This document shows positions 21,637 through 59,078 of a stretch of 64,000 bases of DNA, piece after piece. Source of the stretch: Gracilaria domingensis (lineage: Eukaryota; Rhodophyta; Florideophyceae; Gracilariales; Gracilariaceae); contig VCMS01000039.1 of the NCBI GenBank assembly GCA_022539475.1, forward strand, positions 1 through 64,000, in the 5' to 3' direction. How positions within the stretch are numbered: position 1 is the stretch's first letter; the number at the start of each line of letters is the position of its first letter. The position numbers and the translations under genes are program-made. The notes below the pieces were generated by a model. It ran no database searches and was not told the origin of the DNA. It saw nothing but the letters and a program-made list of their open reading frames with translations.

Positions 21637-21692
21637 CACGAGATATCTTCGTCAGATCGGTTGGTATTCCGTACGGAAAACACGAATCCCAC

Positions 21693-36515: not shown

Positions 36516-39500
36516 ATGGCCGACCCAATCTCCGCAGCCACTGCCGTCGCTAGCGCGGCGCCGACCGCCCTCGCTTACGTCGAGGACAAACTCAACGCCC
36601 CTCTTCGGCGCCACGATTTGGCATGCGACAACCGCCACAGATTTGGGATGGTTCAAAAATTGCTTCAAGAACATCTCCAACTCATTGAAAGCTGGGTCGC
36701 GGATTCGAACGGCGTACGGTGCTGGACGCACACACTACGCACTTGGAGCATTAGGCTGCAGCATGCCAACGACCAATGTATGCAGGTGTCGTCAACCATT
36801 ACGAAGGCTACTCCGTTCAGTCGAGTGCAGCGAGTGGACCAAATTCTCTCTCAAGTAGAAGCAACGGTGAGAGAGTTTGCGTGGTTTGCTGCTGAAGAGA
36901 GAAAACGTATGGAAGAAGCAGACGCTGCCAATGCATCTCCAACTGATGCCAAGTTTTGGCATGGCGGAACTGTGCCACCCAATCCCCTCCGCCTCACATT
37001 GGACTACAATTCCCCCCATACGTTCGAGGGACAGCTTAGAGCAGCCGTACTGGAACAATCGGCACATAGAGTGCTGGCAGTTGTGGCTGCGGGTAGGGGA
37101 GGAGTTGGGAAGACGAGCGCGCTTCGAGGCTTGAACGATGTAGATGATGTTAGGTCAAGGTTTCCAGATGGTGTCCAGTTTTTGCCATTGGGAAAGGACG
37201 CCGGAATAGATGATCTCATCAAGCAGATTGCTAGAATAGTAGAACGAACTGGAAACCGAACACTGGGGAAGGACATTCGTGGACAGAAGCACTTGCAAGG
37301 GGCTGTAGATAAGGCAAGAGAGTGGTTTGTAGATCGCAGATGTCTGTTTTTGGTTGATGATGTGTGGAAGGCGAATGGTTTCGATTTCGATGTCTTTTAC
37401 TTGCTTGCTGAGATGGTTAACGATCGCAGTCGTCTAGTGTACACAACCAGGGAGACTGAGTTTGCGTTGAAAGCTGACAAATCGATAGAGTTTGCGCCGA
37501 GAAACGAGAAAGACTCTCGAGCAATGCTCTTGAGACACTCTGGTCTGGAGTCCTGCACGATTTCGAAGAAGGCCAACACTGAGGCGTTGGAAGGGATTTT
37601 GGAAGCATGCCAGGGTGTTCCATTGCTGTTGGGCGTTACTGGGTCAGGTGTTCGAGAGTATTTCTCATCATTGAAGGGCCGCAAGGAAGATGCTCTTAGA
37701 CTCTATCACGAGAAATTGAGGAGAGAACCGGATATAATCATTGAGGGAGCTTTCGAGGGGTATGGGGTAGTGCGGAATGTGACAAATGCATCAATCTCGG
37801 TGCTGGAGCTGCGTTGGGCAGAGAAGCCAGAAACGTTTCCTCTATCCATTAGAGAAATGCATCGATCTCTTTGTGTGTTGCAGAAACAGCAAGAAGTTCC
37901 TGTGTCGATGCTTCGAAGGCTGTGGGGTTTGAAAGAGGACAGGCAAGCGTTGGAAGTGATGAAGGCGTTGAATTCAGTGGTAGTTGTTGATTTAACGATT
38001 CCAGAGAACGAGGGGGAACTGAGTTCTGTGCTGCGCGTACACGATGACATCCTTGAGACGCTATATGTTGATACAAGGAATACAAGAAAAGCACACATTC
38101 GTCGCTTGTTGGACAACTACTGGCAGGGTTGTGGCGATGCTGCTGACGCTCGGCACAATATGATTTCTATGAAAGCTCATGAGCCAGAAATTGAGAGTTC
38201 TGGTCGTTGGGGTAACCTTAAGAAGTTATGTTGCTGGACGTCTAACAAGATCGAAAAAGCGGGAGAAGGAGATGTCAAAGCCAAGACGACAGTTGCAAAT
38301 TATACATTAGAACGTAAGAGAAGAAAATGGTGGAGTGTAGAGGACGAAGATAGATATGTGGATAACAACGTTTGCCGTCTTCTCAAAGAAGCGGAGGAAG
38401 ATAAGGAATTGGTTTGGCTCTTGTTGAAACCTCAATGGATCACGACGCGTCTTACGCAGGACGGAATACATGCTGTTGAGAATGACATTCTGAGTGGACA
38501 AACAGTATTCGACCGTTCGGAGGTAGAAAAGAAGGAAGAGAAGAAGAGGGCACTGGATGTAATTGCACAGGCGGCCCGACTGAGCCATACAAGAGTGGCT
38601 CGAAATGAACAAGAGGTATTTTTCCAACTGTATGGAAGATTGATAACGTATTCGGAGAAGTGCGCAACGACTCGAAAGTTCTTGGAGGAAATTGCAGAGA
38701 CTGCAGAGAGTGCAGAAGGGCCATGGTTGAAGGCAGGAAAAGGGATCTTGACTGCTGCAGGCGGGGCTGTTTTGGAAAGCATAGAAGTGGAAGCTGGAGT
38801 GCGAGATATTCGAAAGCATGGAAACGAGTTGATGATCCTGGTAAGTGCGGACCGGAATGATGTGTTGCTAGTGAAGTACAACCTGAAACACGGCAGCAGA
38901 AGCACTTTTGTGTTGGATGGAAGGGCTAAAGACGCAGTATTGTCGAACGACGGACGAACAGTTGTGTACGTAAACGAGGATAATAATGTGAAGAAGTGGG
39001 ACGCTGCGAGAGAGGAAGAGATTGTTGTTGGAACGATTACAGATTCGATTGCGTGCATTTGTTTGAGCGAAGACTCGAGATGGGTTGCATGTGGGTTGTT
39101 CAACATTGGAAAGGTGGTATTGTGGGACCTGCAAAGCAATGGTGCCGCTCGTGAATTTGTGAGTGGAAAGGAGCGGTTTATGAAGTGCGTTGCAATTAGT
39201 TCGACGGCTTTGAAGGTTGCATGTGGGTTTTGGTGGGGTGGGGTTGTCGTATGGGATGTGAAAAGTGGCGAAAAGATCTGGGAGGCATCAGAGACAATCG
39301 GAGTGTCTGACGTAGCGTTCAGCGAGAACGGGGATTTGATTGCCACAGGATCAGAGGACAAGACGATTCGTTTGTGGGAGGCAAAGAACGGGAGTTGCTT
39401 GAAGTGTGTTAAGATTGAAGATTCGGTGACAAGGGTGGCGTTTGCCGAAGCAGGTAGAACTATTTTATGGGGTTTAAAGAATGGAGACTACGGCGTGTGG

Positions 39501-40499
39501 GCGCATGAGAGCGGGGAGAGCTCGACAAAGGTGGGTACTATCGGTAGGGGACGGGATAGATGGGGGGGTGAAGTGCGGTACTTGAGTGCCTGTGAAGACG
39601 GCTCGGTCGGGCTTTGCGGAGCGGAGGACGGCAGCGTTCGAGTGTGGGATTTGCGGGGCGCGGAGTCAGAGAGCGACAGCCGCGATGGCGGCGCGCATGA
39701 AGAGGAGATACACATTGTGTGTGTGAGTGCGGACGGGCAGCGGATTGCATCGGGCTCGTGGGACGGGACGGTGCGGCTGTGGGACGGCGCCAGCGGCGCG
39801 CTGCGGCCGCAGGTGCTGCGCGCGCACTCGGGAACGGTGTGGGGGCTTGCGTTCAGCGCGGACGCGCGGCTGCTCGCGTCCAGCGGCATGGACTCTGCGG
39901 TGCGCGTGTGGGACGTGCGCAGCGGCGGCGCCGTGTGCGACGCGCTGTTTGGTCACGGCTGCTCCGTGGGTTGCGTGGCGCTGTGCGCGGACGGCTCGCG
40001 TGTGGCGTCGGGCGCCGACCGCGGCGACGTGCGCGTGTGGGACACGCGCCGCGGCGCCGCTGTCGGCGACCCGCTGACACTGCGCGGGCATGCGGAGCCG
40101 GTCGTGTGCGTGGCCATGTCGGACGACGGCGCGCGTGTGGGGGCGGGATACGAGGACAACGTGGTCGCTGTGTGGGACGTGGCGGCGCGCGTGGCCACGC
40201 ACCGCTTCTCTTTCGGCTTGAGTGTTCATTTCGTTTCCTTCCGCGGGTGCTACGTCGAAGGTATGCTTGCGCTTGCCTCTGCGTTTCGGTTCAACTTGGA
40301 GCACTCGACGTTCGAGGAGGACCCCACGCTGCACGAGCTGCCCTCGTGGTGGACGCAGTCGCCGATATTGACGTTTGACGACTCGCGCAACCGCCAGCAG
40401 TGGCTTGGCACAGCCGACCACTACTGCACACGCTATAAGTTCGGCTTCTTTTCTTATCATCAGAACAAACGTCTTCAGTTCTGTCTTGTACAGCAATAA
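36516..40499 (+). CDS. NLR-like NB-ARC ATPase with C-terminal WD40 propeller (1,327 aa)
   Basis: Single exon from ATG at 36516. Residues 1-150 are helical with no named domain. NB-ARC: Walker A GRGGVGKTS at 193-201, Walker B LFLVDDVW at 277-284, RNBS-B-like SRLVYTTRE at 305-313, GLPL-like GVPLLL at 367-372, and VHD (MHD equivalent) at 508-510. A charged helical linker (about 520-770) precedes about ten WD40 repeats (about 785-1222; VRVWD, VRLWD, VVVWD ends). The architecture matches Apaf-1-like STAND proteins, which assemble on ligand binding and act in immunity or cell death; the trigger here is unknown. From about base 39600 the last blades are much more GC-rich (44 of 60 at 39901-39960, versus 27 of 60 at 38641-38700). 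The stop TAA overlaps an AATAAA string. Confidence 0.92.
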   Translation: MADPISAATAVASAAPTALAYVEDKLNAPLRRHDLACDNRHRFGMVQKLLQEHLQLIESWVADSNGVRCWTHTLRTWSIRLQHANDQCMQVSSTITKATPFSRVQRVDQILSQVEATVREFAWFAAEERKRMEEADAANASPTDAKFWHGGTVPPNPLRLTLDYNSPHTFEGQLRAAVLEQSAHRVLAVVAAGRGGVGKTSALRGLNDVDDVRSRFPDGVQFLPLGKDAGIDDLIKQIARIVERTGNRTLGKDIRGQKHLQGAVDKAREWFVDRRCLFLVDDVWKANGFDFDVFYLLAEMVNDRSRLVYTTRETEFALKADKSIEFAPRNEKDSRAMLLRHSGLESCTISKKANTEALEGILEACQGVPLLLGVTGSGVREYFSSLKGRKEDALRLYHEKLRREPDIIIEGAFEGYGVVRNVTNASISVLELRWAEKPETFPLSIREMHRSLCVLQKQQEVPVSMLRRLWGLKEDRQALEVMKALNSVVVVDLTIPENEGELSSVLRVHDDILETLYVDTRNTRKAHIRRLLDNYWQGCGDAADARHNMISMKAHEPEIESSGRWGNLKKLCCWTSNKIEKAGEGDVKAKTTVANYTLERKRRKWWSVEDEDRYVDNNVCRLLKEAEEDKELVWLLLKPQWITTRLTQDGIHAVENDILSGQTVFDRSEVEKKEEKKRALDVIAQAARLSHTRVARNEQEVFFQLYGRLITYSEKCATTRKFLEEIAETAESAEGPWLKAGKGILTAAGGAVLESIEVEAGVRDIRKHGNELMILVSADRNDVLLVKYNLKHGSRSTFVLDGRAKDAVLSNDGRTVVYVNEDNNVKKWDAAREEEIVVGTITDSIACICLSEDSRWVACGLFNIGKVVLWDLQSNGAAREFVSGKERFMKCVAISSTALKVACGFWWGGVVVWDVKSGEKIWEASETIGVSDVAFSENGDLIATGSEDKTIRLWEAKNGSCLKCVKIEDSVTRVAFAEAGRTILWGLKNGDYGVWAHESGESSTKVGTIGRGRDRWGGEVRYLSACEDGSVGLCGAEDGSVRVWDLRGAESESDSRDGGAHEEEIHIVCVSADGQRIASGSWDGTVRLWDGASGALRPQVLRAHSGTVWGLAFSADARLLASSGMDSAVRVWDVRSGGAVCDALFGHGCSVGCVALCADGSRVASGADRGDVRVWDTRRGAAVGDPLTLRGHAEPVVCVAMSDDGARVGAGYEDNVVAVWDVAARVATHRFSFGLSVHFVSFRGCYVEGMLALASAFRFNLEHSTFEEDPTLHELPSWWTQSPILTFDDSRNRQQWLGTADHYCTRYKFGFFSYHQNKRLQFCLVQQ

Positions 40500-43776: not shown

Positions 43777-44517
43777 TTACACGAGGTGGCGGCCGCCGTC
43801 CAGGTGCACGACCTCGCCGGTGATGTAGGCGGGGCCGGCGAGCAGAAACCCCAGCGCGTGCTGCAGCTCGGCGGCGTCGCACCAGCGCGCGGCCGGCACG
43901 CGCGCCAGCGGCGCGTCGCCGCCGCCGCCGCCGCCGCCGCCGCCGTCGGCGGGCGGCAGCACGGCGCCCAGCGCCAGCGCGTTGACGGCGACGCGCGGCG
44001 CCAGCGCCGCCGCCATGGCGCGCGTCACGGCCGCCAGCGCCGCCTTGCTCACGCCGTACGCAAAGTGCGCGCCGTCGCCGCCGGGCCGCAGCGCGCGCCA
44101 GTCCACCACGTTCACCACGCGCGCGCCCGCGCGCGCCGACGCCGCAAACGCCTGGCTCAGCAGGAACGGCGCCGTCACGTTGATGTCCAGGTGGCGCTGC
44201 CACGCCGCCAGCGACGTGTCCGCCGCGCCGCCGCGCTCGAAGATGGACGCGCTGTTCACCAGCGCGTGCAGCCGCGACAGCTGCGTCGCGCGCGCGATCA
44301 GCTGCGCGACGGTGTCGGGCTGCGTGAAGTCGCACTGCAGCACCCACGCGCGCCGCCCCAGCCGCTCGATTTCTTGCCGTACCGCGTCGGCTTCCGTGGG
44401 CGAGTGCGCGTGGTGCACGATCACGTCCGCGCCCTGTGCGGCGCACCCCAGCGCGAACAGACGCCCGACGCGCCGCGCGCCGCCGGTCACGAGCACCGTC
44501 TTGCCGTCCAGACTCAT
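43777..44517 (-). CDS. Pteridine-reductase-type short-chain dehydrogenase (FolM/PTR1-like, 246 aa)
   Basis: Classical SDR fold. The nucleotide-binding motif is TGGARRVG at 11-18, the TGX3RXG signature of pteridine reductases; LVNSASIF at 87-94 replaces NNAG; the usual catalytic Ser is replaced by Asp (VVDW, D139), as in PTR1 and FolM; YGVSK at 154-158 gives the Tyr and Lys. The end GEVVHLDGG is typical. Such enzymes use NADPH to reduce dihydropterins or dihydrofolate. folK and folB lie upstream on the same strand, so a pterin role fits. No targeting peptide seen, so cytosolic. The gene is extremely GC-rich (50 of 60 bases at 43981-44040) and a CCG repeat encodes nine Gly in a row. Substrate is inferred, not shown. 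Confidence 0.85.
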   Translation of the reverse strand: MSLDGKTVLVTGGARRVGRLFALGCAAQGADVIVHHAHSPTEADAVRQEIERLGRRAWVLQCDFTQPDTVAQLIARATQLSRLHALVNSASIFERGGAADTSLAAWQRHLDINVTAPFLLSQAFAASARAGARVVNVVDWRALRPGGDGAHFAYGVSKAALAAVTRAMAAALAPRVAVNALALGAVLPPADGGGGGGGGGDAPLARVPAARWCDAAELQHALGFLLAGPAYITGEVVHLDGGRHLV

Positions 44518-45175
44518 CTCACCGCAGCTTCTTCCGCTTTCGGGACGCGCCTTGCAGAGTGGCGCGGCCTACCGAAGCACGTTCTTCAACCGCAGTAGAC
44601 GCGCGGTAAGCCCATTTGCTTTCCGGCACATTCGATGCAAATTCTGCGCGTCGCGTGCGCTGTCAACGAGATCGAACGAGGTGCGTCCGGCTTCTCCTAC
44701 CCTTGTACAGCGTAACAGATTCTTACAGCTACCACTCGTTTCCTACAGATAATCTCGTCCTATGAGCCTTCATCTCCCAGTTAGGGCCACTCAAATTCAC
44801 ACTGAACATTCATGTTGCTTGCAATCTTGCAACAGGATAAGTGAGGGCAACTTACCCTCAACGTAAATAGCTCGACGCCATCACATCAGCGAAGGTAAAC
44901 ATGCTCCTTCCCAGAAGAGCATTTCTCAAAAGTATCGGGAGCTGATCACAGCTTGAGGTATGCAGTTTGTCCACCTTCAACAAACACCATACTTGCCATC
45001 TATCGCATTATCGACATGTCCATCACCTAGTGGACCGCTCAAACATTGTCTCATGCAGCTTGCTGTTTAATCATATTCTACAGAAGCTAGCAACCGCGAC
45101 CTTCGTTGTCGACGAAAAACCGCTTTGAGGACACATTCTTGATCTCAGGTGGCAGAAACATCCTTGATATCTCCT
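44518..45175. other. Spacer between folK copy 1 and the reductase gene
   Basis: No gene. It holds the left border of the tandem array at 44654, only 137 bp before the reductase start codon, so the reductase promoter spans the array edge or lies in the array. Confidence 0.6.
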
Positions 45176-45754
45176 CTACAACGCTAACAGCGCTTCGGAT
45201 GAGCGCAGACGTTTGTCTGCAATTCTTTGGTTCTCCTTAACCTTTGCCTGCATCTGCCGCGAAACGGTAACGTCCTCTCGTTTTCGCATCCATACTTGAT
45301 CACGCATTTTCGCAGCCACCTCCGCAACCTTTTGCTGCTGGCGGTCACGCGAGTTGCGAATGGGGTACTCGTAATCGGGTATTAACTCAGAGAGTGGTAC
45401 CAAACAGAAAGCCTGTTTCCAAGAACTGAGGTCGAGCGGAATCCCATTAAACAGCTCAATGTCTATATCTATGGGACGAGGAGCATTCCGATTAGAACAA
45501 CGCTTCCGCCCGAGCTGAGCCTCAATGGGTCGAATGACACTGGCCTTGAATTCATCCGCGTTCTTTGACGTCAACACAAACATCGCTGCGTTCAAAAAGT
45601 TCGGGCCATCGCAACCCACAGATTCGGTTTCCCACGCAGACGACACAGACTTCACTTCACAAAAGTTGCTGAGTAGCAAGATGCCTCTGGGCAAGTTTTG
45701 CTCTGGATTGATATTGGACCCGAGGCTGAGATACGCATGATGCAACTCACTCAT
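45176..45754 (-). CDS. folK: HPPK, 6-hydroxymethyl-7,8-dihydropterin pyrophosphokinase, unit 1 (192 aa)
   Basis: Transfers pyrophosphate from ATP to 6-hydroxymethyl-dihydropterin in folate synthesis. Seen: SLGSN at 10-14, GPNFLNAA at 50-57, LGRKR at 81-85 and RPIDIDI at 93-99 with the two Mg-binding Asp (96, 98), then LVPLSELIPD at 118-127. The loop that normally carries a PH(P/Y) motif and catalytic His/Arg before FVLxPL is shortened to LSSWKQAF, so activity may be altered. A charged helical tail of about 60 residues is extra. Its ATG (45754-45752) overlaps the end of folB by 8 nt (ATGAGTGA), so it is probably translated from the same mRNA. No transit peptide; in plants the enzyme is a mitochondrial HPPK-DHPS fusion, in fungi part of a DHNA-HPPK-DHPS protein. 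Confidence 0.88.
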   Translation of the reverse strand: MSELHHAYLSLGSNINPEQNLPRGILLLSNFCEVKSVSSAWETESVGCDGPNFLNAAMFVLTSKNADEFKASVIRPIEAQLGRKRCSNRNAPRPIDIDIELFNGIPLDLSSWKQAFCLVPLSELIPDYEYPIRNSRDRQQQKVAEVAAKMRDQVWMRKREDVTVSRQMQAKVKENQRIADKRLRSSEALLAL

Positions 45755-46103
45755 CTCGATGGCGCTCTATCTCCACGCCGACTGACCTAGAGAAGCGAAC
45801 AGCGCCTGGTTTCTCAACGTAGACCAAAACCTTTCGAGCGAGCTTTTCCTGCAGACAGATGCGAGCCAAATCGTTCGCCAACGCTTCGACGGTTCGACGC
45901 TTTGCACACTCGGCGTGTGCCTTCACTTTCTTTGCGACAGCGCTGTAGTCAACACAGTCACCAATGTCGTCGCTGTGTGCTGCCCTGGTGGTGTCGGTGA
46001 AGATGGTAATGTTGATGAGAATATCCTGCTCCTTCTCACGTTCCCAGTGCCTTATTCCGAGGATGGCACGAACGAGCAAGTCCTTGATTACGACCTTGTC
46101 CAT
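45747..46103 (-). CDS. folB: Dihydroneopterin aldolase, unit 1 (118 aa)
   Basis: Cleaves 7,8-dihydroneopterin to 6-hydroxymethyl-dihydropterin and glycolaldehyde; many members also epimerise at C2'. The length equals that of bacterial FolB. Conserved residues: WER at 20-22 (Glu21), VDYSAV with Tyr53, TVEALAN with Glu73, and VEKPGAV with Lys98 as the catalytic base. The end RSVGVEIER is typical of bacterial FolB. ATG at 46103 is about 110 bp after a TATA-like box. The stop TGA (45749-45747) is inside the folK start region, with folK in the +1 frame. Together with folK this resembles a bacterial operon pair. Confidence 0.93.
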   Translation of the reverse strand: MDKVVIKDLLVRAILGIRHWEREKEQDILINITIFTDTTRAAHSDDIGDCVDYSAVAKKVKAHAECAKRRTVEALANDLARICLQEKLARKVLVYVEKPGAVRFSRSVGVEIERHRDE

Positions 46104-46210
46104 GAGACTTGAGCTCGTGCACCATGAGCTGTAGATTTAGTATCCATGGACCATCACAAGGAGATGACGTCTCCCGTGTTGGCAAAGAGCGCGCGAAAGA
46201 ATCCGGAAGG

Positions 46211-46220
46211 TTTATATGCC
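46211..46220 (-). promoter_or_regulatory. TATA-like box of folB
   Basis: GGCATATAAA on the minus strand, 108-117 bp before the folB ATG. It argues that transcription starts close to folB and covers folB and folK. Same at 52498-52507 and 58785-58794. Confidence 0.5.
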
Positions 46221-46449
46221 TTGCAAATATCTTATCTTGTGAAGCACTTTGGCACGAGATATCTGTACGTATAGAAGCTTCAGGGCATACAGTGAAGGCA
46301 GCCTGACCAAGAATGTTACATACGCCTGAAGAACGACAGAACGTCAGTTTGCGGCAGCGTGGAATTGCGCGATGCGGCAGTAACGACGTGCTCCGAAAGG
46401 GAACGATTTCTGAACATATCTTCGCAGCCCTCGTGCTGAGAATTGACAT

Positions 46450-46504
46450 GTACACGTAGTCAACCAGAACTCGTTAGCAACGAGTTCTGGTTGACTACGT
46501 GTAC
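46450..46504. repeat. Perfect 26-bp-stem hairpin, unit 1
   Basis: Arms 46450-46475 and 46479-46504 are exact reverse complements with a 3-nt loop (AGC); outer bases GTACACGTAG/CTACGTGTAC. TTGAC occurs on both sides (46443-46447 and 46508-46512), a possible duplication. It lies between the folB promoter and the divergent 255-aa gene. Too short a loop for an ordinary bacterial terminator context; it could be a fold-back insertion, a recombination hot spot or a transcribed hairpin. Confidence 0.95.
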
Positions 46505-46711
46505 TTTTTGACTGAATCTAGAAGACAGAGTAAAAAACGTACGCCCCTGATTATCATAAATACAAATCATAGAATTAAAATATTGAGAGAATGATTATAT
46601 GGAACGTTTTACTGCAAGTTGAAAATTACAAAATTTGCGCGAACTTTTGAAAAGGAAGCGTAACAATTTGTAAATATATTGTCATTTTTTCGGAAGCTTT
46701 GATTGGCAATC

Positions 46712-46744
46712 GAGTTTGACCTTGGAACTTCCAAGGTCAAACTC
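46712..46744. repeat. Perfect 15-bp-stem hairpin, unit 1
   Basis: Arms 46712-46726 and 46730-46744 (GAGTTTGACCTTGGA and its complement) around the loop ACT. Imperfect pairing continues outward (GATTG at 46701 with CAATC at 46754). Same at 52999-53031 and 59286-59318. Confidence 0.93.
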
Positions 46745-46929
46745 AAGTTGGAAGCAATCGCCCGGCGTGACGCCTCTACACCCCAAAACAAAGTCGCGTG
46801 ACTGCCACAGCCTCGCCCACAACCAGTCCGCGTTCTAACCTGGAGCTTCGCAAGACCTCACAATTCACTCCCACAGCTTTTCCCAAGCCTAACCTCCGGC
46901 CATGCTTCGACGCCAGCGCTGCAATCTGC

Positions 46930-46937
46930 CATAAAAA
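46930..46937 (+). promoter_or_regulatory. TATA-like box of the 255-aa gene
   Basis: CATAAAAA about 105 bp before the ATG at 47039; repeated at 53217-53224 and 59504-59511. Confidence 0.45.
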
Positions 46938-47038
46938 GAGCTCAAGCTCCCATCGAGAACAAGAAATCGTGGGTCCCCTCCCAAACGCGCAGTACAGCGC
47001 CAGTTTTCACACTCAAGCTTTCCCCATCACGACGTACA

Positions 47039-47806
47039 ATGCGTTGCTCCACACTCGCTATCCTCGCCACCTTCACGGCGCTCAATGTATTCGTCGAAGC
47101 CGCCGCCGCCACCGTCAGCGGAGCCTTCGACACGGACACCCTGGAGCTGACGCGCGTCTTCAACCTGGCCAATCTTGACACGTACGCACTCATCTGCAAG
47201 CGCGCTCCGGATATTGCCGACGCGTTTGTGTTCACCGAGGTGCCGCCACCGGCGATGGACACCCTTGGCAGAAGCAGTGCCACCGTACACTGCATCGCTC
47301 GCGTGCATCACAAGCTGAAAGCAAACTGCACACAGCTAAACTCAACTCAGTTCGAGCTCTACGCGCAGCCTGTTTTGGAACGATGCGTGCACCGACCGCC
47401 GCTTTCCACAGCGGACGCCGGAGATACACGTCCGTTCTCGTTTGATCGTTCGAGGTGCAAGTCCAAGTTGGCGTGGTCTGGCAACGCGGTGCAGTCCACC
47501 GTGACATTCGTGTGCGAATGCTTGCAGATCGGGTTCTACGAGGTGCTGCCGGGCTGGCCACGCCTTTTCTTAAACGGCAGCGAGGCGGAAACGGCGGAAG
47601 AGCGGCAGAAAGTGTTGCAGTGCGCCATGGAGGCTGAGCAGCGCATGAGTGAGCTTTGTCTGCGTAGGCCGGGCGACTATGACGTTTTGGGGTTGCAGGT
47701 GCTTCAGGCGTGCTGCAAGCGCGCGCGTGTGGCATCGGTACGCAAGTTTGATTGCGTACCGGTTGTTCCGCGCGATCTGAGTGCGCTCAAGTACGAGTTT
47801 CGGTGA
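47039..47806 (+). CDS. Secreted Cys-containing protein of unknown function, unit 1 (255 aa)
   Basis: Signal peptide at 1-24 (MRCSTLAILATFTALNVFVEA). The mature chain has more than ten Cys (ICKRAP, VHCIAR, ANCTQ, ERCVHR, FVCECLQ, LQACCKR, FDCVP), suggesting disulfides, two NxT/S sites (NCT, NST) and a further NGS. No known domain recognised. Divergent from folB across 935 bp that hold the two hairpins. Confidence 0.78.
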   Translation: MRCSTLAILATFTALNVFVEAAAATVSGAFDTDTLELTRVFNLANLDTYALICKRAPDIADAFVFTEVPPPAMDTLGRSSATVHCIARVHHKLKANCTQLNSTQFELYAQPVLERCVHRPPLSTADAGDTRPFSFDRSRCKSKLAWSGNAVQSTVTFVCECLQIGFYEVLPGWPRLFLNGSEAETAEERQKVLQCAMEAEQRMSELCLRRPGDYDVLGLQVLQACCKRARVASVRKFDCVPVVPRDLSALKYEFR

Positions 47807-49068
47807 TCGGGATACAAACGTTCTCTCATACCTCGTCTTGTAGTCCGTGAATATTCATCTCTGCAACAATCGTTTATGATTTTCTCTTGTGCCTGAGCTG
47901 CTCTAGAAATCAACACGAAAGCACATGAGCCGATTGAAATCTGCTATACCACCCTGCGGTGTATGTTGTCCGGCGTCACTACAGCGCGATGTACGAGCGG
48001 ACTGCCGAAGTGATAGCAGGGAGACACAGGAAATGGAACAACTTTACCTATAGGATCAAAAGTAATAAATCAAAATATAAAAATAGAACCATAATGTAAT
48101 ATGCAGATTTTAAATAGCTTCTAAAAATTTAAGTACGTCTTTGCGAAATATGTTTTGCTGCACGCAATTTCCCTGGTGCAAGTTTTGTTCAAGGAAACCC
48201 GACGTTTCGAATGGTTGAAATCATGTCCCAACAAAGATACATACTCATTCCTAAACATATAGGCTTAAAATTTTTACTCACCTATTTTTTCACATACGCT
48301 ACATGTGTGATTTCCCGATTTCTCCTGTAAGGCGGTGATGCGAAAGCACCAGACGTGACGTAATAAAGTATCTGAAACAAATTCTAGACAGAAACGATTG
48401 TTTTGTATGCGTTCAGGGTAGGGGCGTATTTGTGACTGACTATTTTGCTATATTGGAAAGTCATAGTCACCACTTGTTTCAAAATCTGTAGAATGTGAGC
48501 AGGTGCACATGTGGAACTATCGCCAATGTGTATGTCCATCTTTGCGCAAACCGGTTTCCCAACTCTCGACTTGCATGCTCAACACCTCCGTGGAAACCTC
48601 CATTGCCGTGGCCGCATCTCTTAGCAGAAAATGACGGTGCAATCCCGGTGCTGCCTATGAGAATTTTCACAGCAACTTTGAACATAATCTCGGACAGGAG
48701 AGAAAGTCCAATTCAAGGATGATCTCATACACGTCCTTCACTCTGCTACACAGTTCACGAGCTACAATCAAATTGGGAAGACATAGCTTCCGTTGAATCA
48801 CTCCTTGTCAAGATACCAAGCATTGAGTGGTGACCATACCTGTCAGTCAACGTTGCCCGCCTAAAACAGAGGTACGCATTTAGAAGGCAGTGCAGCATTA
48901 GAGCTTCAACTCAGCAACATATGTTTATCTCGATTCAGTTTTTGTAACGTGGGCTCTGCTTGAGCCAAGGGCCACATACGATTCTACAGTAGAGCTATTA
49001 GTGTAGATTGAATGGGAAAGCGCAACCAGATGAGTGGTACTTAACTTTCGTCTTCCCCCACTTGCAAA
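47807..49068. other. Intergenic between the two secreted-protein genes, unit 1
   Basis: The flanking genes are convergent. AT-rich at 48040-48480. Short frames (up to 75 codons) near 48480-48720 overlap on both strands and look like chance. Same in units 2 and 3. Confidence 0.55.
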
Positions 49069-49977
49069 TTACGCCTGAGCAATCCAGGCACGAATTGCGT
49101 TGATCCATGGCGCCCAGTCGTTCGTGAACCTTTTGAACGCTGCATATGCGTTCAGAGCTACTTCTCCCTGTGTCCAAAACGTTTGGCCGATTTGATTAAT
49201 AATATTCTGGCACGCTTCCTTGGCAGCTTGAATGGTGTTAGCGGCATCCAAAGCCATTTCCAATCTGGCTATGAGCACCAAAATTGCGTCGGAAAACCTG
49301 TCGAGAATGATATCTGCCAGACCTCGGTCAGACTCGGGGAATTCTGCAATGAGCTCCAGCACTTGCGTGTTAAGTTGCCTGAGCGCTTCCAGCGCTCTTT
49401 CTCCGTTTCTCTTTACGGCTTCAATCGTGTTGGATATCACGGCGCTCCGGAGAGCAGAGAGCACCTGCCCCATCAGAGAAATAACGAACTGAATCTGATT
49501 TGTCAGCGGGTTGGGTCTGTTTTGTCTAGTCACGGATTCGAGCTTCGCAGCCTTCACAGCCTTCACCGGAACAAGTTCACGACCCTTCGCAGGCGATGAT
49601 GCACTGATCGGCTCTATGACGCTCTGTCTGTCAACATGATTCCACGCTCCTCCGCCGAGGGATGCGTCGTTGGGAATCGATGAGCACACCTTGAACCATT
49701 CGACACCATTGTAGCACTTCTTGTATCTTGCCGGCCAGGTGCCTCCCCAGACGCACACACTAGTCGAAGAAACCTTGATGCACTCCACTTGACAGTAATG
49801 GCAGTGATTACGAGCTCGTGCGTTGCCACCGTGGCACCAATATGCCTCATGCTCGCAGCAGCGGGCAGCAGTCGCTCCATCCGCGTGACATTCACCGGGT
49901 GCCCAGGCGTAGACGGAATGAATCAAAATGAGAGAGAGTAAGGCCATGAGGGTCACTTTTGCATGGTGGGCGGCCAT
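49069..49977 (-). CDS. Secreted protein, Cys-rich head and helical tail, unit 1 (302 aa)
   Basis: Signal peptide at 1-25 (VTLMALLSLILIHSVYA). Residues 29-100 hold about a dozen Cys and His (CCEHEAYWCHGG, HCHYCQVECIK, CSSIPND), as in a small disulfide or metal-binding module. Residues about 160-302 are amphipathic helices with heptad-like Leu/Ile (SALRSAVISNTIEAVKR, VLELIAEFPESDRG). No family recognised. ATG at 49977; a TATA box lies 128-136 bp upstream. Confidence 0.78.
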   Translation of the reverse strand: MAAHHAKVTLMALLSLILIHSVYAWAPGECHADGATAARCCEHEAYWCHGGNARARNHCHYCQVECIKVSSTSVCVWGGTWPARYKKCYNGVEWFKVCSSIPNDASLGGGAWNHVDRQSVIEPISASSPAKGRELVPVKAVKAAKLESVTRQNRPNPLTNQIQFVISLMGQVLSALRSAVISNTIEAVKRNGERALEALRQLNTQVLELIAEFPESDRGLADIILDRFSDAILVLIARLEMALDAANTIQAAKEACQNIINQIGQTFWTQGEVALNAYAAFKRFTNDWAPWINAIRAWIAQA

Positions 49978-50104
49978 TCTGCGGGAGGGGGAAAGGAGAA
50001 TATGGATGAAGTCAATCTAGAGCTGTCGGAGTTGTGCCTTTCAAACGTTATTCCTTTCTTTGCTTGGTTTGGAAAGAGAGGAGATGAGAGAGGATGGACG
50101 CTCC

Positions 50105-50113
50105 CCTTTTATA
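50105..50113 (-). promoter_or_regulatory. TATA box of the 302-aa gene
   Basis: TATAAAAGG on the minus strand, the best TATA match in the window. Same at 56392-56400 and 62679-62687. Confidence 0.6.
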
Positions 50114-50617
50114 GCCATCTGTTGCATTCTCATCCTGGCTCTTTGAGCCGTTCATTCGGACGAGTGGCTCTATAGGAGAAAAACGAGAAAGAAGCTCTAT
50201 GAAAACTGTGCTGGTCCAAGGAAGCTGAATTTGGGAGAGAACTAGCCCTTCTTTTTCAATTGTATTAGCGTCGTCGATGAATGAGTCGGCTCTTTCTGTT
50301 CTATCTTTAAGAAAACGCTTCGCAGTTACACTAATGTCGTGTCTAACGCCAATTCGATGGATCTATTTTGACAACTTTAGGAATTGAAAACAACAAAAGC
50401 TTGTTGGTATAGTTGGAAGGCCCAGCTTCATCGTAATAATTCCCAAAGTGAGGTGTACCGACGCACTTTCGGACACAGTTTGGACACTTGCTTCACATCG
50501 GCTTCGACTTTGAGAGGTTCTCGAAAACCTCTTCATGTAACGGCAGTTAACCAGGAGAACCCTACAGATGAGACTATGCCTCCTCGGAGAATTGCTTTAC
50601 GTTGAGACTGCCAAACA
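50114..50617. other. Upstream region of the 302-aa gene, unit 1
   Basis: Contains short inverted repeats (GGCTCTTTGAGCC near 50136) and no gene. Same in units 2 and 3. Confidence 0.45.
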
Positions 50618-50839
50618 TCAGAAAATGTGGGCTTGAACTGTTGGCATGATGAGCTGTCCTAGGTGCAATTGATTTTCTCTCATTTGCTTTGTCAAGGTGC
50701 TTAATTTCTCCTTCATCATTTCTCGCGTAACGACATCTGTTATAGGCCTTTTCATGTCTTCGAAAGAAGTCCGGACAATTTCATAAACCTCTGCATTGGA
50801 TGATTGATACCAACAATATGCCTCTATAACGGCATCCAC
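50618..50839 (-). CDS. Possible truncated ORF at the unit border, unit 1 (about 73 codons)
   Basis: Helical, charged sequence (VVTREMMKEKLSTLTKQMREN) with no good ATG at its 5' end; TGA TGA precedes it. It lies about 100 bp from the unit junction, so it may be the 3' part of a gene cut by the duplication break. Also at 56905-57126 and 63192-63413. Confidence 0.3.
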   Translation of the reverse strand: MDAVIEAYCWYQSSNAEVYEIVRTSFEDMKRPITDVVTREMMKEKLSTLTKQMRENQLHLGQLIMPTVQAHIF

Positions 50840-51462
50840 GACTTTTCATCAGTTCTCAATTTCGACTTCTGCACTTTCCGAATTGCCTTCGGCGAGCGGT
50901 CCAAGAAGACAATCTTCTCCTATGAGTTCTTTCATATGAACGTGCGCTGTCAACGAGATCGAACGAGGTGCGTCCGGCTTCTCCTACCCTTGTACAGCGT
51001 AACAGATTCTTACAGCTACCACTCGTTTCCTACAGATAATCTCGTCCTATGAGCCTTCATCTCCCAGTTAGGGCCACTCAAATTCACACTGAACATTCAT
51101 GTTGCTTGCAATCTTGCAACAGGATAAGTGAGGGCAACTTACCCTCAACGTAAATAGCTCGACGCCATCACATCAGCGAAGGTAAACATGCTCCTTCCCA
51201 GAAGAGCATTTCTCAAAAGTATCGGGAGCTGATCACAGCTTGAGGTATGCAGTTTGTCCACCTTCAACAAACACCATACTTGCCATCTATCGCATTATCG
51301 ACATGTCCATCACCTAGTGGACCGCTCAAACATTGTCTCATGCAGCTTGCTGTTTAATCATATTCTACAGAAGCTAGCAACCGCGACCTTCGTTGTCGAC
51401 GAAAAACCGCTTTGAGGACACATTCTTGATCTCAGGTGGCAGAAACATCCTTGATATCTCCT

Positions 51463-52041
51463 CTACAACGCTAACAGCGCTTCGGATGAGCGCAGACGTT
51501 TGTCTGCAATTCTTTGGTTCTCCTTAACCTTTGCCTGCATCTGCCGCGAAACGGTAACGTCCTCTCGTTTTCGCATCCATACTTGATCACGCATTTTCGC
51601 AGCCACCTCCGCAACCTTTTGCTGCTGGCGGTCACGCGAGTTGCGAATGGGGTACTCGTAATCGGGTATTAACTCAGAGAGTGGTACCAAACAGAAAGCC
51701 TGTTTCCAAGAACTGAGGTCGAGCGGAATCCCATTAAACAGCTCAATGTCTATATCTATGGGACGAGGAGCATTCCGATTAGAACAACGCTTCCGCCCGA
51801 GCTGAGCCTCAATGGGTCGAATGACACTGGCCTTGAATTCATCCGCGTTCTTTGACGTCAACACAAACATCGCTGCGTTCAAAAAGTTCGGGCCATCGCA
51901 ACCCACAGATTCGGTTTCCCACGCAGACGACACAGACTTCACTTCACAAAAGTTGCTGAGTAGCAAGATGCCTCTGGGCAAGTTTTGCTCTGGATTGATA
52001 TTGGACCCGAGGCTGAGATACGCATGATGCAACTCACTCAT
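51463..52041 (-). CDS. folK: HPPK, unit 2
   Basis: Protein identical to the unit 1 copy, including the short catalytic loop; same 8-nt overlap with folB at 52034-52041. Confidence 0.88.
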   Translation of the reverse strand: MSELHHAYLSLGSNINPEQNLPRGILLLSNFCEVKSVSSAWETESVGCDGPNFLNAAMFVLTSKNADEFKASVIRPIEAQLGRKRCSNRNAPRPIDIDIELFNGIPLDLSSWKQAFCLVPLSELIPDYEYPIRNSRDRQQQKVAEVAAKMRDQVWMRKREDVTVSRQMQAKVKENQRIADKRLRSSEALLAL

Positions 52042-52390
52042 CTCGATGGCGCTCTATCTCCACGCCGACTGACCTAGAGAAGCGAACAGCGCCTGGTTTC
52101 TCAACGTAGACCAAAACCTTTCGAGCGAGCTTTTCCTGCAGACAGATGCGAGCCAAATCGTTCGCCAACGCTTCGACGGTTCGACGCTTTGCACACTCGG
52201 CGTGTGCCTTCACTTTCTTTGCGACAGCGCTGTAGTCAACACAGTCACCAATGTCGTCGCTGTGTGCTGCCCTGGTGGTGTCGGTGAAGATGGTAATGTT
52301 GATGAGAATATCCTGCTCCTTCTCACGTTCCCAGTGCCTTATTCCGAGGATGGCACGAACGAGCAAGTCCTTGATTACGACCTTGTCCAT
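52034..52390 (-). CDS. folB: Dihydroneopterin aldolase, unit 2
   Basis: Protein identical to the unit 1 copy; all four conserved residues (Glu21, Tyr53, Glu73, Lys98) are kept. Confidence 0.93.
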   Translation of the reverse strand: MDKVVIKDLLVRAILGIRHWEREKEQDILINITIFTDTTRAAHSDDIGDCVDYSAVAKKVKAHAECAKRRTVEALANDLARICLQEKLARKVLVYVEKPGAVRFSRSVGVEIERHRDE

Positions 52391-52736
52391 GAGACTTGAG
52401 CTCGTGCACCATGAGCTGTAGATTTAGTATCCATGGACCATCACAAGGAGATGACGTCTCCCGTGTTGGCAAAGAGCGCGCGAAAGAATCCGGAAGGTTT
52501 ATATGCCTTGCAAATATCTTATCTTGTGAAGCACTTTGGCACGAGATATCTGTACGTATAGAAGCTTCAGGGCATACAGTGAAGGCAGCCTGACCAAGAA
52601 TGTTACATACGCCTGAAGAACGACAGAACGTCAGTTTGCGGCAGCGTGGAATTGCGCGATGCGGCAGTAACGACGTGCTCCGAAAGGGAACGATTTCTGA
52701 ACATATCTTCGCAGCCCTCGTGCTGAGAATTGACAT

Positions 52737-52791
52737 GTACACGTAGTCAACCAGAACTCGTTAGCAACGAGTTCTGGTTGACTACGTGTAC
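52737..52791. repeat. Perfect 26-bp-stem hairpin, unit 2
   Basis: Both arms unchanged relative to unit 1. Confidence 0.95.
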
Positions 52792-53325
52792 TTTTTGACT
52801 GAATCTAGAAGACAGAGTAAAAAACGTACGCCCCTGATTATCATAAATACAAATCATAGAATTAAAATATTGAGAGAATGATTATATGGAACGTTTTACT
52901 GCAAGTTGAAAATTACAAAATTTGCGCGAACTTTTGAAAAGGAAGCGTAACAATTTGTAAATATATTGTCATTTTTTCGGAAGCTTTGATTGGCAATCGA
53001 GTTTGACCTTGGAACTTCCAAGGTCAAACTCAAGTTGGAAGCAATCGCCCGGCGTGACGCCTCTACACCCCAAAACAAAGTCGCGTGACTGCCACAGCCT
53101 CGCCCACAACCAGTCCGCGTTCTAACCTGGAGCTTCGCAAGACCTCACAATTCACTCCCACAGCTTTTCCCAAGCCTAACCTCCGGCCATGCTTCGACGC
53201 CAGCGCTGCAATCTGCCATAAAAAGAGCTCAAGCTCCCATCGAGAACAAGAAATCGTGGGTCCCCTCCCAAACGCGCAGTACAGCGCCAGTTTTCACACT
53301 CAAGCTTTCCCCATCACGACGTACA

Positions 53326-54093
53326 ATGCGTTGCTCCACACTCGCTATCCTCGCCACCTTCACGGCGCTCAATGTATTCGTCGAAGCCGCCGCCGCCACC
53401 GTCAGCGGAGCCTTCGACACGGACACCCTGGAGCTGACGCGCGTCTTCAACCTGGCCAATCTTGACACGTACGCACTCATCTGCAAGCGCGCTCCGGATA
53501 TTGCCGACGCGTTTGTGTTCACCGAGGTGCCGCCACCGGCGATGGACACCCTTGGCAGAAGCAGTGCCACCGTACACTGCATCGCTCGCGTGCATCACAA
53601 GCTGAAAGCAAACTGCACACAGCTAAACTCAACTCAGTTCGAGCTCTACGCGCAGCCTGTTTTGGAACGATGCGTGCACCGACCGCCGCTTTCCACAGCG
53701 GACGCCGGAGATACACGTCCGTTCTCGTTTGATCGTTCGAGGTGCAAGTCCAAGTTGGCGTGGTCTGGCAACGCGGTGCAGTCCACCGTGACATTCGTGT
53801 GCGAATGCTTGCAGATCGGGTTCTACGAGGTGCTGCCGGGCTGGCCACGCCTTTTCTTAAACGGCAGCGAGGCGGAAACGGCGGAAGAGCGGCAGAAAGT
53901 GTTGCAGTGCGCCATGGAGGCTGAGCAGCGCATGAGTGAGCTTTGTCTGCGTAGGCCGGGCGACTATGACGTTTTGGGGTTGCAGGTGCTTCAGGCGTGC
54001 TGCAAGCGCGCGCGTGTGGCATCGGTACGCAAGTTTGATTGCGTACCGGTTGTTCCGCGCGATCTGAGTGCGCTCAAGTACGAGTTTCGGTGA
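53326..54093 (+). CDS. Secreted Cys-containing protein, unit 2 (255 aa)
   Basis: Identical to the copy at 47039. Confidence 0.78.
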   Translation: MRCSTLAILATFTALNVFVEAAAATVSGAFDTDTLELTRVFNLANLDTYALICKRAPDIADAFVFTEVPPPAMDTLGRSSATVHCIARVHHKLKANCTQLNSTQFELYAQPVLERCVHRPPLSTADAGDTRPFSFDRSRCKSKLAWSGNAVQSTVTFVCECLQIGFYEVLPGWPRLFLNGSEAETAEERQKVLQCAMEAEQRMSELCLRRPGDYDVLGLQVLQACCKRARVASVRKFDCVPVVPRDLSALKYEFR

Positions 54094-55355
54094 TCGGGAT
54101 ACAAACGTTCTCTCATACCTCGTCTTGTAGTCCGTGAATATTCATCTCTGCAACAATCGTTTATGATTTTCTCTTGTGCCTGAGCTGCTCTAGAAATCAA
54201 CACGAAAGCACATGAGCCGATTGAAATCTGCTATACCACCCTGCGGTGTATGTTGTCCGGCGTCACTACAGCGCGATGTACGAGCGGACTGCCGAAGTGA
54301 TAGCAGGGAGACACAGGAAATGGAACAACTTTACCTATAGGATCAAAAGTAATAAATCAAAATATAAAAATAGAACCATAATGTAATATGCAGATTTTAA
54401 ATAGCTTCTAAAAATTTAAGTACGTCTTTGCGAAATATGTTTTGCTGCACGCAATTTCCCTGGTGCAAGTTTTGTTCAAGGAAACCCGACGTTTCGAATG
54501 GTTGAAATCATGTCCCAACAAAGATACATACTCATTCCTAAACATATAGGCTTAAAATTTTTACTCACCTATTTTTTCACATACGCTACATGTGTGATTT
54601 CCCGATTTCTCCTGTAAGGCGGTGATGCGAAAGCACCAGACGTGACGTAATAAAGTATCTGAAACAAATTCTAGACAGAAACGATTGTTTTGTATGCGTT
54701 CAGGGTAGGGGCGTATTTGTGACTGACTATTTTGCTATATTGGAAAGTCATAGTCACCACTTGTTTCAAAATCTGTAGAATGTGAGCAGGTGCACATGTG
54801 GAACTATCGCCAATGTGTATGTCCATCTTTGCGCAAACCGGTTTCCCAACTCTCGACTTGCATGCTCAACACCTCCGTGGAAACCTCCATTGCCGTGGCC
54901 GCATCTCTTAGCAGAAAATGACGGTGCAATCCCGGTGCTGCCTATGAGAATTTTCACAGCAACTTTGAACATAATCTCGGACAGGAGAGAAAGTCCAATT
55001 CAAGGATGATCTCATACACGTCCTTCACTCTGCTACACAGTTCACGAGCTACAATCAAATTGGGAAGACATAGCTTCCGTTGAATCACTCCTTGTCAAGA
55101 TACCAAGCATTGAGTGGTGACCATACCTGTCAGTCAACGTTGCCCGCCTAAAACAGAGGTACGCATTTAGAAGGCAGTGCAGCATTAGAGCTTCAACTCA
55201 GCAACATATGTTTATCTCGATTCAGTTTTTGTAACGTGGGCTCTGCTTGAGCCAAGGGCCACATACGATTCTACAGTAGAGCTATTAGTGTAGATTGAAT
55301 GGGAAAGCGCAACCAGATGAGTGGTACTTAACTTTCGTCTTCCCCCACTTGCAAA

Positions 55356-56264
55356 TTACGCCTGAGCAATCCAGGCACGAATTGCGTTGATCCATGGCGC
55401 CCAGTCGTTCGTGAACCTTTTGAACGCTGCATATGCGTTCAGAGCTACTTCTCCCTGTGTCCAAAACGTTTGGCCGATTTGATTAATAATATTCTGGCAC
55501 GCTTCCTTGGCAGCTTGAATGGTGTTAGCGGCATCCAAAGCCATTTCCAATCTGGCTATGAGCACCAAAATTGCGTCGGAAAACCTGTCGAGAATGATAT
55601 CTGCCAGACCTCGGTCAGACTCGGGGAATTCTGCAATGAGCTCCAGCACTTGCGTGTTAAGTTGCCTGAGCGCTTCCAGCGCTCTTTCTCCGTTTCTCTT
55701 TACGGCTTCAATCGTGTTGGATATCACGGCGCTCCGGAGAGCAGAGAGCACCTGCCCCATCAGAGAAATAACGAACTGAATCTGATTTGTCAGCGGGTTG
55801 GGTCTGTTTTGTCTAGTCACGGATTCGAGCTTCGCAGCCTTCACAGCCTTCACCGGAACAAGTTCACGACCCTTCGCAGGCGATGATGCACTGATCGGCT
55901 CTATGACGCTCTGTCTGTCAACATGATTCCACGCTCCTCCGCCGAGGGATGCGTCGTTGGGAATCGATGAGCACACCTTGAACCATTCGACACCATTGTA
56001 GCACTTCTTGTATCTTGCCGGCCAGGTGCCTCCCCAGACGCACACACTAGTCGAAGAAACCTTGATGCACTCCACTTGACAGTAATGGCAGTGATTACGA
56101 GCTCGTGCGTTGCCACCGTGGCACCAATATGCCTCATGCTCGCAGCAGCGGGCAGCAGTCGCTCCATCCGCGTGACATTCACCGGGTGCCCAGGCGTAGA
56201 CGGAATGAATCAAAATGAGAGAGAGTAAGGCCATGAGGGTCACTTTTGCATGGTGGGCGGCCAT
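55356..56264 (-). CDS. Secreted protein, Cys-rich head and helical tail, unit 2 (302 aa)
   Basis: Identical to the copy at 49069. Confidence 0.78.
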   Translation of the reverse strand: MAAHHAKVTLMALLSLILIHSVYAWAPGECHADGATAARCCEHEAYWCHGGNARARNHCHYCQVECIKVSSTSVCVWGGTWPARYKKCYNGVEWFKVCSSIPNDASLGGGAWNHVDRQSVIEPISASSPAKGRELVPVKAVKAAKLESVTRQNRPNPLTNQIQFVISLMGQVLSALRSAVISNTIEAVKRNGERALEALRQLNTQVLELIAEFPESDRGLADIILDRFSDAILVLIARLEMALDAANTIQAAKEACQNIINQIGQTFWTQGEVALNAYAAFKRFTNDWAPWINAIRAWIAQA

Positions 56265-57749
56265 TCTGCGGGAGGGGGAAAGGAGAATATGGATGAAGTC
56301 AATCTAGAGCTGTCGGAGTTGTGCCTTTCAAACGTTATTCCTTTCTTTGCTTGGTTTGGAAAGAGAGGAGATGAGAGAGGATGGACGCTCCCCTTTTATA
56401 GCCATCTGTTGCATTCTCATCCTGGCTCTTTGAGCCGTTCATTCGGACGAGTGGCTCTATAGGAGAAAAACGAGAAAGAAGCTCTATGAAAACTGTGCTG
56501 GTCCAAGGAAGCTGAATTTGGGAGAGAACTAGCCCTTCTTTTTCAATTGTATTAGCGTCGTCGATGAATGAGTCGGCTCTTTCTGTTCTATCTTTAAGAA
56601 AACGCTTCGCAGTTACACTAATGTCGTGTCTAACGCCAATTCGATGGATCTATTTTGACAACTTTAGGAATTGAAAACAACAAAAGCTTGTTGGTATAGT
56701 TGGAAGGCCCAGCTTCATCGTAATAATTCCCAAAGTGAGGTGTACCGACGCACTTTCGGACACAGTTTGGACACTTGCTTCACATCGGCTTCGACTTTGA
56801 GAGGTTCTCGAAAACCTCTTCATGTAACGGCAGTTAACCAGGAGAACCCTACAGATGAGACTATGCCTCCTCGGAGAATTGCTTTACGTTGAGACTGCCA
56901 AACATCAGAAAATGTGGGCTTGAACTGTTGGCATGATGAGCTGTCCTAGGTGCAATTGATTTTCTCTCATTTGCTTTGTCAAGGTGCTTAATTTCTCCTT
57001 CATCATTTCTCGCGTAACGACATCTGTTATAGGCCTTTTCATGTCTTCGAAAGAAGTCCGGACAATTTCATAAACCTCTGCATTGGATGATTGATACCAA
57101 CAATATGCCTCTATAACGGCATCCACGACTTTTCATCAGTTCTCAATTTCGACTTCTGCACTTTCCGAATTGCCTTCGGCGAGCGGTCCAAGAAGACAAT
57201 CTTCTCCTATGAGTTCTTTCATATGAACGTGCGCTGTCAACGAGATCGAACGAGGTGCGTCCGGCTTCTCCTACCCTTGTACAGCGTAACAGATTCTTAC
57301 AGCTACCACTCGTTTCCTACAGATAATCTCGTCCTATGAGCCTTCATCTCCCAGTTAGGGCCACTCAAATTCACACTGAACATTCATGTTGCTTGCAATC
57401 TTGCAACAGGATAAGTGAGGGCAACTTACCCTCAACGTAAATAGCTCGACGCCATCACATCAGCGAAGGTAAACATGCTCCTTCCCAGAAGAGCATTTCT
57501 CAAAAGTATCGGGAGCTGATCACAGCTTGAGGTATGCAGTTTGTCCACCTTCAACAAACACCATACTTGCCATCTATCGCATTATCGACATGTCCATCAC
57601 CTAGTGGACCGCTCAAACATTGTCTCATGCAGCTTGCTGTTTAATCATATTCTACAGAAGCTAGCAACCGCGACCTTCGTTGTCGACGAAAAACCGCTTT
57701 GAGGACACATTCTTGATCTCAGGTGGCAGAAACATCCTTGATATCTCCT

Positions 57750-58328
57750 CTACAACGCTAACAGCGCTTCGGATGAGCGCAGACGTTTGTCTGCAATTCT
57801 TTGGTTCTCCTTAACCTTTGCCTGCATCTGCCGCGAAACGGTAACGTCCTCTCGTTTTCGCATCCATACTTGATCACGCATTTTCGCAGCCACCTCCGCA
57901 ACCTTTTGCTGCTGGCGGTCACGCGAGTTGCGAATGGGGTACTCGTAATCGGGTATTAACTCAGAGAGTGGTACCAAACAGAAAGCCTGTTTCCAAGAAC
58001 TGAGGTCGAGCGGAATCCCATTAAACAGCTCAATGTCTATATCTATGGGACGAGGAGCATTCCGATTAGAACAACGCTTCCGCCCGAGCTGAGCCTCAAT
58101 GGGTCGAATGACACTGGCCTTGAATTCATCCGCGTTCTTTGACGTCAACACAAACATCGCTGCGTTCAAAAAGTTCGGGCCATCGCAACCCACAGATTCG
58201 GTTTCCCACGCAGACGACACAGACTTCACTTCACAAAAGTTGCTGAGTAGCAAGATGCCTCTGGGCAAGTTTTGCTCTGGATTGATATTGGACCCGAGGC
58301 TGAGATACGCATGATGCAACTCACTCAT
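57750..58328 (-). CDS. folK: HPPK, unit 3
   Basis: Identical to the other copies; overlap with folB at 58321-58328. Confidence 0.88.
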   Translation of the reverse strand: MSELHHAYLSLGSNINPEQNLPRGILLLSNFCEVKSVSSAWETESVGCDGPNFLNAAMFVLTSKNADEFKASVIRPIEAQLGRKRCSNRNAPRPIDIDIELFNGIPLDLSSWKQAFCLVPLSELIPDYEYPIRNSRDRQQQKVAEVAAKMRDQVWMRKREDVTVSRQMQAKVKENQRIADKRLRSSEALLAL

Positions 58329-59023: not shown

Positions 59024-59078
59024 GTACACGTAGTCAACCAGAACTCGTTAGCAACGAGTTCTGGTTGACTACGTGTAC
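59024..59078. repeat. Perfect 26-bp-stem hairpin, unit 3
   Basis: Both arms unchanged relative to unit 1. Confidence 0.95.

Follow-up and report, generated by a model that had tools for sequence, protein, structure and literature searches.

An overlapping folB–folK gene pair of apparent Anaerolineae origin, present in four copies in the nuclear genome of a red alga

Overlaps of a stop codon with the next start codon couple genes in bacteria, and the presence of one between two genes of the red alga Gracilaria domingensis raises the question of how genes packed in the bacterial manner could be expressed from a nuclear genome. The pair, a folB-like and a folK-like gene, lies in the 64 kb of DNA analysed here (hereafter the window), which are part of a 291-kb contig (C39) in an assembly of 77.9 Mb. 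How bacterial operons are activated in eukaryotes is an open question, and a 2025 paper states that none of the transfers it cites kept its polycistronic structure (PMC11952965); the locus offers a natural test. As judged from sequence, it appears to be a bacterial operon junction that outlasted its transfer and now exists four times over in a red alga, a reading that is strongly supported as far as origin is concerned.

The first-pass annotation had described an 8-nt overlap with folK one frame off, and this was confirmed: the folK ATG lies in the +1 frame with respect to folB, whose stop falls inside the same octamer, ATGAGTGA (Table 1). Its description of both frames as full length and intact also held, the ORFs of 118 and 192 codons having Pfam FolB and HPPK matches above cut-off. 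For FolB, both PF02152 and TIGR00526 scored above their cut-offs and the equivalog TIGR00525 fell under its own (66.2 bits vs 72.15); for the folK product, PF01288 and TIGR01498 were above cut-off and the narrower equivalogs PRK10239 and PRK14092 were below theirs. One loop of the algal FolK is shorter than in E. coli HPPK, as is also the case in its closest bacterial relatives. A single-sequence structure model of FolK was uninformative (mean pLDDT 48.5).

Table 1. Coordinates of the features discussed, numbered along the window; the tandem array ends beyond the window on the same contig.
Feature	Position	Strand	Remarks
FolM/pteridine-reductase-like SDR gene	43777-44517	(-)	246 aa, intact, just outside array
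Tandem array	44654-69797 (window part 44654-64000)		unit 6287 bp, four identical copies, end outside window on C39
folK-like gene, copy 1	45754-45176	(-)	192 aa, HPPK family, C-terminal extension, Pfam HPPK 2.3e-19
8-nt overlap ATGAGTGA	45754-45747	(-)	folK start and folB stop
folB-like gene, copy 1	46103-45747	(-)	118 aa, dihydroneopterin aldolase family, Pfam FolB 1.6e-27
Stretch upstream of folB	46104-46154	(-)	three upstream ATGs: -22, -44, -51
302-aa host-family gene within repeat unit	49069-49977	(-)	seven further contigs of assembly carry divergent relatives
folK copy 2	51463-52041	(-)
folB copy 2	52034-52390	(-)
folK copy 3	57750-58328	(-)
folB copy 3	58321-58677	(-)

Splicing that merges the two frames would have given the overlap an ordinary eukaryotic explanation, a possibility raised in the same annotation. 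The FolB domain ends at residue 113 (45765) and the FolK domain starts at residue 8 (45733), with 31 nt between them; GTRAG donors are present at positions 46861, 46039 and 45750. A frame-merging intron between the domains was rejected, as 31 nt is too tight and the GT/AG positions there yield no usable intron. The donor at 45750 was likewise rejected as an intron start, being inside the junction, where splicing would break folK.

The window does contain three copies, as counted earlier; the array has four. These show zero mismatches over 25 kb and are identical up to the array end, and as identical duplicates they are not independent confirmations of the junction. The octamer is present at every folB–folK copy: after copy 1, the junction recurs within the window at 52041 and 58328, and beyond it at 64615. 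We take the repeat unit to be host DNA since its 302-aa gene has divergent relatives, some with stops, on seven other contigs (C15, C79, C96, C100, C110, C137 and C164); a fifth copy of this gene, with an identical protein, lies at C39:207868-208773, ~138 kb past the array on the same contig. Mismatch-free repetition on this scale could be an assembly product, and it would favour bacterial contamination or mis-assembly as the source of the locus. That explanation is highly improbable given the host relatives of the 302-aa gene, the retroelement-like ORFs seen by eye on the same contig, and the position of the reductase (SDR) gene, which comes after folK here and before folB in 32/38 bacterial loci. 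Amplification to four copies hints at a dosage benefit without demonstrating one.

Several other features of the contig were recorded. Within the repeat unit, two short inverted repeats (46450-46504 and 46712-46744), with perfect matching over at least 14-mers, are located upstream of folB and could be hairpins or small mobile elements. Long ORFs at 5512-12179 and 15288-21639 resemble, by eye, two Ty3-type retroelements, and a stop-free 1327-aa ORF at 36516-40499 has NB-ARC and WD40 domains. To the right of the array on C39 there are, again by eye, a tyrosine recombinase-like ORF (L018:3396-4604) and a piggyBac-type transposase-like ORF (L018:6961-8433).

The SDR gene is found 658 bp downstream of folK on the same strand and is single copy in the genome. 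Its best PDB match is FolM (5tgd), and it stays below the FolM-type equivalog cut-offs (PRK09134, 197.8 vs 281; PRK09135, 169.4 vs 288); we therefore call the predicted protein FolM-like by best PDB match and do not class it as FolM. A tblastn search of the window with five bacterial SDRs (E up to 1) found no SDR remnant upstream of folB. The GC content of the gene is 76.8%, and 95.5% at third positions, compared with 53% for folB and 50% for folK; the native FolB gene on contig C34 is likewise GC-rich (74%).

Relatives of this reductase were sought in 84,980 prokaryotic species genomes, which gave at least 30 loci. The best seven among the matches listed (L029-L035) were all from Chloroflexota (Anaerolineaceae or near kin), with 46–56% identity to the algal SDR; in each of them folB and folK come after the reductase, with identities of 56–64% for FolB and 39–47% for FolK. 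A FolB match (E 1e-5) was present in 182/396 genomes of the Anaerolineae, the class of Bellilinea, with a top identity of 77%; for the phylum to which a Magnetococcales MAG (G008) belongs, 398 genomes gave at most 55%. A Magnetococcales MAG locus (L036) has the same cluster with FolB at 47%, so that the cluster is not confined to Anaerolineae. In L074, L075, L076, L078 and L082 the identities were 69–77% for FolB, 56–61% for the SDR and, in four of the five, 47–56% for FolK, with L078 giving both 61% for the SDR and 56% for FolK. Plasmid records contained FolB matches in 45 cases and FolK matches in 11, all below 60% identity (top among the matches listed, 39.8% and 36.4% respectively), and two single-protein pattern scans of viral contigs, sensitive to close relatives only, found no relatives.

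The junction itself was tallied in 38 bacterial loci, which are best matches and not a random sample: the eight of 30 reductase-scan loci with a FolB match (seven Chloroflexota, one Magnetococcales) and the 30 best Anaerolineae FolB matches. Of these, 37 are distinct, L033 and L097 being the same gene. The reductase is upstream of folB on the same strand in 32/38 and folK adjoins folB in 33/38; in the others (L092, L093, L094, L096 and L098) there is no folK within ~1.8 kb from the folB start. Among the 33 with adjacent folK, 13 have separate ORFs and an in-frame ATG placed precisely 8 nt ahead of the end of folB, and two more have TTG at that position. Two are fused without a stop, both entries being one Bellilinea gene counted twice, and the remaining 16 have other spacings that range from small gaps to overlaps depending on the start chosen. 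In L076 and L086 the octamer is letter-identical to that of the alga. As both algal frames encode family members and the same ATG overlap recurs in the bacterial loci, the overlap is beyond chance. The earlier suggestion of a bacterial-type stop-start overlap is thus borne out, the junction being inherited from bacteria; the fungal DHNA–HPPK fusion, with which the arrangement had also been compared, is not its source, the pair deriving from an Anaerolineae SDR–folB–folK cluster.

A fused form does exist in nature, in that folB–folK of Bellilinea caldifistulae (L033:3735-4577) is a single ORF of 280 aa with the same domain order as in fungi. This lends some plausibility to a +1 frameshift at GAG-TGA-G that would fuse the algal FolB to FolK in frame, but bacterial loci that share this overlap encode the two proteins in separate ORFs, and we regard such a frameshift as extremely unlikely. 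As for the role of the bacterial cluster, all eight genomes behind L029-L036 contain a second, more distant FolK, and a GTP cyclohydrolase I-like ORF (by eye) faces the cluster in L029, L030, L033, L034 and L035; on these two grounds the cluster probably serves pterin or folate synthesis in these bacteria.

Phylogenetic trees were built for each protein, the host's own FolB being the only eukaryotic sequence in them besides the window proteins. The FolB tree had 35 rows and covered 28/38 loci (L032, L081, L092, L093, L094, L096, L098, L100 and L101 were left out, as was L097, the duplicate of L033); the alga fell within a clade of 18, itself counted, at 99/96, and beside L075 at 98/73. In the SDR tree (26 core rows including the alga and nine further reductase-scan loci, 35 rows in all) it was again within a clade of 18, alga counted, at 96/90, near L075, L076 and L078 at only 83/79. 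The FolK tree (26 rows including the alga, no outgroup, algal FolK cut to its first 175 residues) put the alga within a clade of 18 at 97/90 as sister to the other 17 (94/87), on a long branch (0.72), a placement that disagrees with the FolB and SDR trees. When the three genes were joined (24 loci and the alga, 25 rows), the alga was within nested groups of 18 rows (100/99) and 10 rows (99/99), and beside L075 at 94/84.

These trees are best explained by transfer of a single bacterial cluster into the alga, and the bacterial origin of the cluster from an Anaerolineae-type donor is, by these comparisons, almost certain. The order folB–folK was kept and the SDR gene moved to the other side of the pair; the cluster is seated on a host contig, with its retroelement-like ORFs (by eye) and a repeat-unit gene that has divergent relatives elsewhere. 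An Anaerolineae-type bacterium would have given an ancestor of the red alga a piece of an SDR(FolM-like)–folB–folK cluster; in the nucleus the SDR gene would have ended alone downstream and folB and folK would have kept their 8-nt overlap, the folB–folK segment then coming to exist as four identical tandem copies. Among the papers listed by full-text literature searches, none dealt with this locus or with a folate transfer from Chloroflexota to a red alga, which is not proof of absence.

The host also encodes its own FolB (C34) and HPPK-DHPS (C45), the matched pieces of the latter being split by two short gaps at which GTAAGT donors can be seen by eye. One HPPK-DHPS gene is present in most algae and plants covered in PMC6451014, and Archaeplastida FolB is placed inside a bacterial clade, apart from other eukaryotes, in PMC4224340. 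The C34 protein matches 4/8 bacterial FolBs at 30–34% and the window FolB matches 8/8 at 47–64%, which makes the latter a second, foreign FolB. The transferred set would supplement the native pathway with a second FolB, a second HPPK and a FolM-like reductase, and we infer from the sequences that these are active enzymes put to use beside the host's own.

The same native enzymes may make the transferred set redundant, in which case folK or the whole locus could be silent and the overlap a relic. We consider this very unlikely. Both reading frames have stayed open, whereas the two alternative frames of that strand contain 8 and 11 stops across folK and 4 and 6 across folB. FolB keeps E21, Y53, E73 and K98, which are catalytic residues and which are invariant in an eight-row alignment. 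Further, folB third positions are only 38–43% identical to those of six bacterial loci compared with 69–77% for the protein (five loci), a contrast that does not prove that selection acted in the alga, part of the divergence path being bacterial.

Given a functional pair, how might the second gene be translated? Between the folB ATG and the folK ATG (346 nt) there is no ATG in any frame. From base composition by itself 5.3 would be predicted, and 2.1 are expected with the protein fixed and codon use pooled from eight window ORFs (P = 0.07); shuffling synonymous codons within the gene gave P = 0.28 for the absence of ATG. Across the 64 kb, 1.0% of 346-nt stretches on the plus strand and 2.5% on the minus strand are free of ATG. 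In 22 bacterial loci, folB has a mean of 2.4 internal ATGs and three lack them altogether, L075 included, which is the row closest to the alga in the FolB and joined trees. ATG depletion was therefore rejected as proof of selection, the P-value given the protein and the three ATG-free bacterial homologues making it too weak; the trait may have been inherited by luck, as those homologues indicate, and the counts mean that it permits leaky scanning without proving selection for it. The base at -3 is C at folB, a weak context, and G at folK; a purine occupies this position in 5/6 other starts read, a tiny sample of predicted starts that includes the transferred SDR. Of the three ATGs upstream of folB, the one at -51 opens an ORF of 5 codons, that at -44 one of 19 codons and that at -22 one of 29 codons that overlaps the folB start. 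These would tax the folB and folK starts alike if the leader is longer than ~21 nt, and it is speculation that the 5-codon ORF might allow late reinitiation at folK.

Taking these features together, we think it probable that folB and folK share one bicistronic mRNA. The lack of an ATG between the starts and the weak folB context make leaky scanning the likeliest way of using it, and whether this would be the main mode we rate as evenly balanced. One capped mRNA would yield both proteins: some ribosomes would start at the weak folB ATG; others would scan past it and, with no further ATG for 346 nt, start at the folK ATG. The first-pass annotation had favoured termination-reinitiation or a frameshift fusion, modes that the sequence does not specifically support, and leaky scanning fits the same two features at least as well. 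It had also looked to green algae for its bicistronic parallel; the host is a red alga (10/12 phycobiliprotein-type matches on contig C680), and the two proteins for which PDB relatives were sought came closest to chains 2bv8 and 5tjf, both from Gracilaria chilensis. Bicistrons of Chlamydomonas have a median ORF1 of 357 nt, to which the length of folB (357 nt) is equal by coincidence, and the green-algal results described in PMC11291117 support leaky scanning and include some bicistronic loci with overlapping stop and start. For the red alga Cyanidium, PMC9812998 gives polycistronic expression for ~14.5% of genes.

On the same single mRNA, ribosomes could instead reach folK by terminating and reinitiating where stop and start overlap, with zero spacer between them; in a selected yeast strain (PMC11952965), 80S reinitiation dropped as the spacer went from 10 to 50 bp. 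The unselected strain of that study failed to grow on the markers that such a construct carries in cistrons 2 and 3, the effect of ORF1 start context on ORF2 in the green-algal experiments of PMC11291117 was opposite to the reinitiation expectation, and with 118 codons folB is long for a first ORF from which to reinitiate. We regard reinitiation as distinctly unlikely.

A different reading accepts the bacterial origin and gives folK its own transcript from a start site inside folB, so that the overlap is only spatial. After a siderophore operon was transferred into yeasts, new start sites reportedly arose inside coding sequence (Kominek et al. 2019, Cell). The SDR gene, already standing alone 658 bp below folK, also favours separate transcription, as does the want of any retained polycistronic structure among the transferred operons cited in PMC11952965. 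An independent folK transcript would leave both the overlap and the ATG-free stretch as unexplained leftovers, and we consider it unlikely.

Transfer from Anaerolineae, a kept overlap and one mRNA read by leaky scanning would be the best overall explanation, and one that we think slightly likelier to hold than to fail. The fuller proposal, that the bacterial pair works in the nucleus with its overlap kept to the letter, on one mRNA whose ribosomes skip the ATG-free first gene, is tentative and falls a little short of an even chance. If true, a first gene with few ATGs would let a transferred operon be used as soon as it arrives, and this would account for the survival of such transfers until their genes gain their own promoters. 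As the overlap is exactly that of bacterial relatives, and these relatives are at hand, leaky scanning, reinitiation and new-promoter models are testable on one natural locus.

The SDR–folB–folK clusters of Anaerolineae (Chloroflexota) share with the algal locus the same three genes and, in 13/33 loci, the same 8-nt +1 overlap; they differ in that the SDR precedes folB, whereas it follows folK in the alga, where folB–folK is in four nuclear copies and FolK has a longer C-terminus. The yeast siderophore operon and yeast thiamine salvage operons are reportedly bacterial operons transferred into eukaryotes, likewise linked bacterial genes taken as a unit. Those cited in PMC11952965 were rearranged into single units, whereas the algal folB and folK still overlap, and the yeast of that study needed selection before a second cistron was translated. 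The green-algal bicistrons of PMC11291117 have as here a short ORF1 with a weak start context and no ATG; the present pair, known from sequence, differs from them in its red-algal host, its bacterial origin and its three upstream ATGs. A further parallel is the folB–folK fusion of Branchiostoma, which PMC4224340 ascribes to transfer from prokaryotes: there, too, folB and folK were taken jointly into a eukaryote, as one fused gene placed beside a Planctomyces in the folK tree, whereas the alga has two overlapping genes that point to Chloroflexota.
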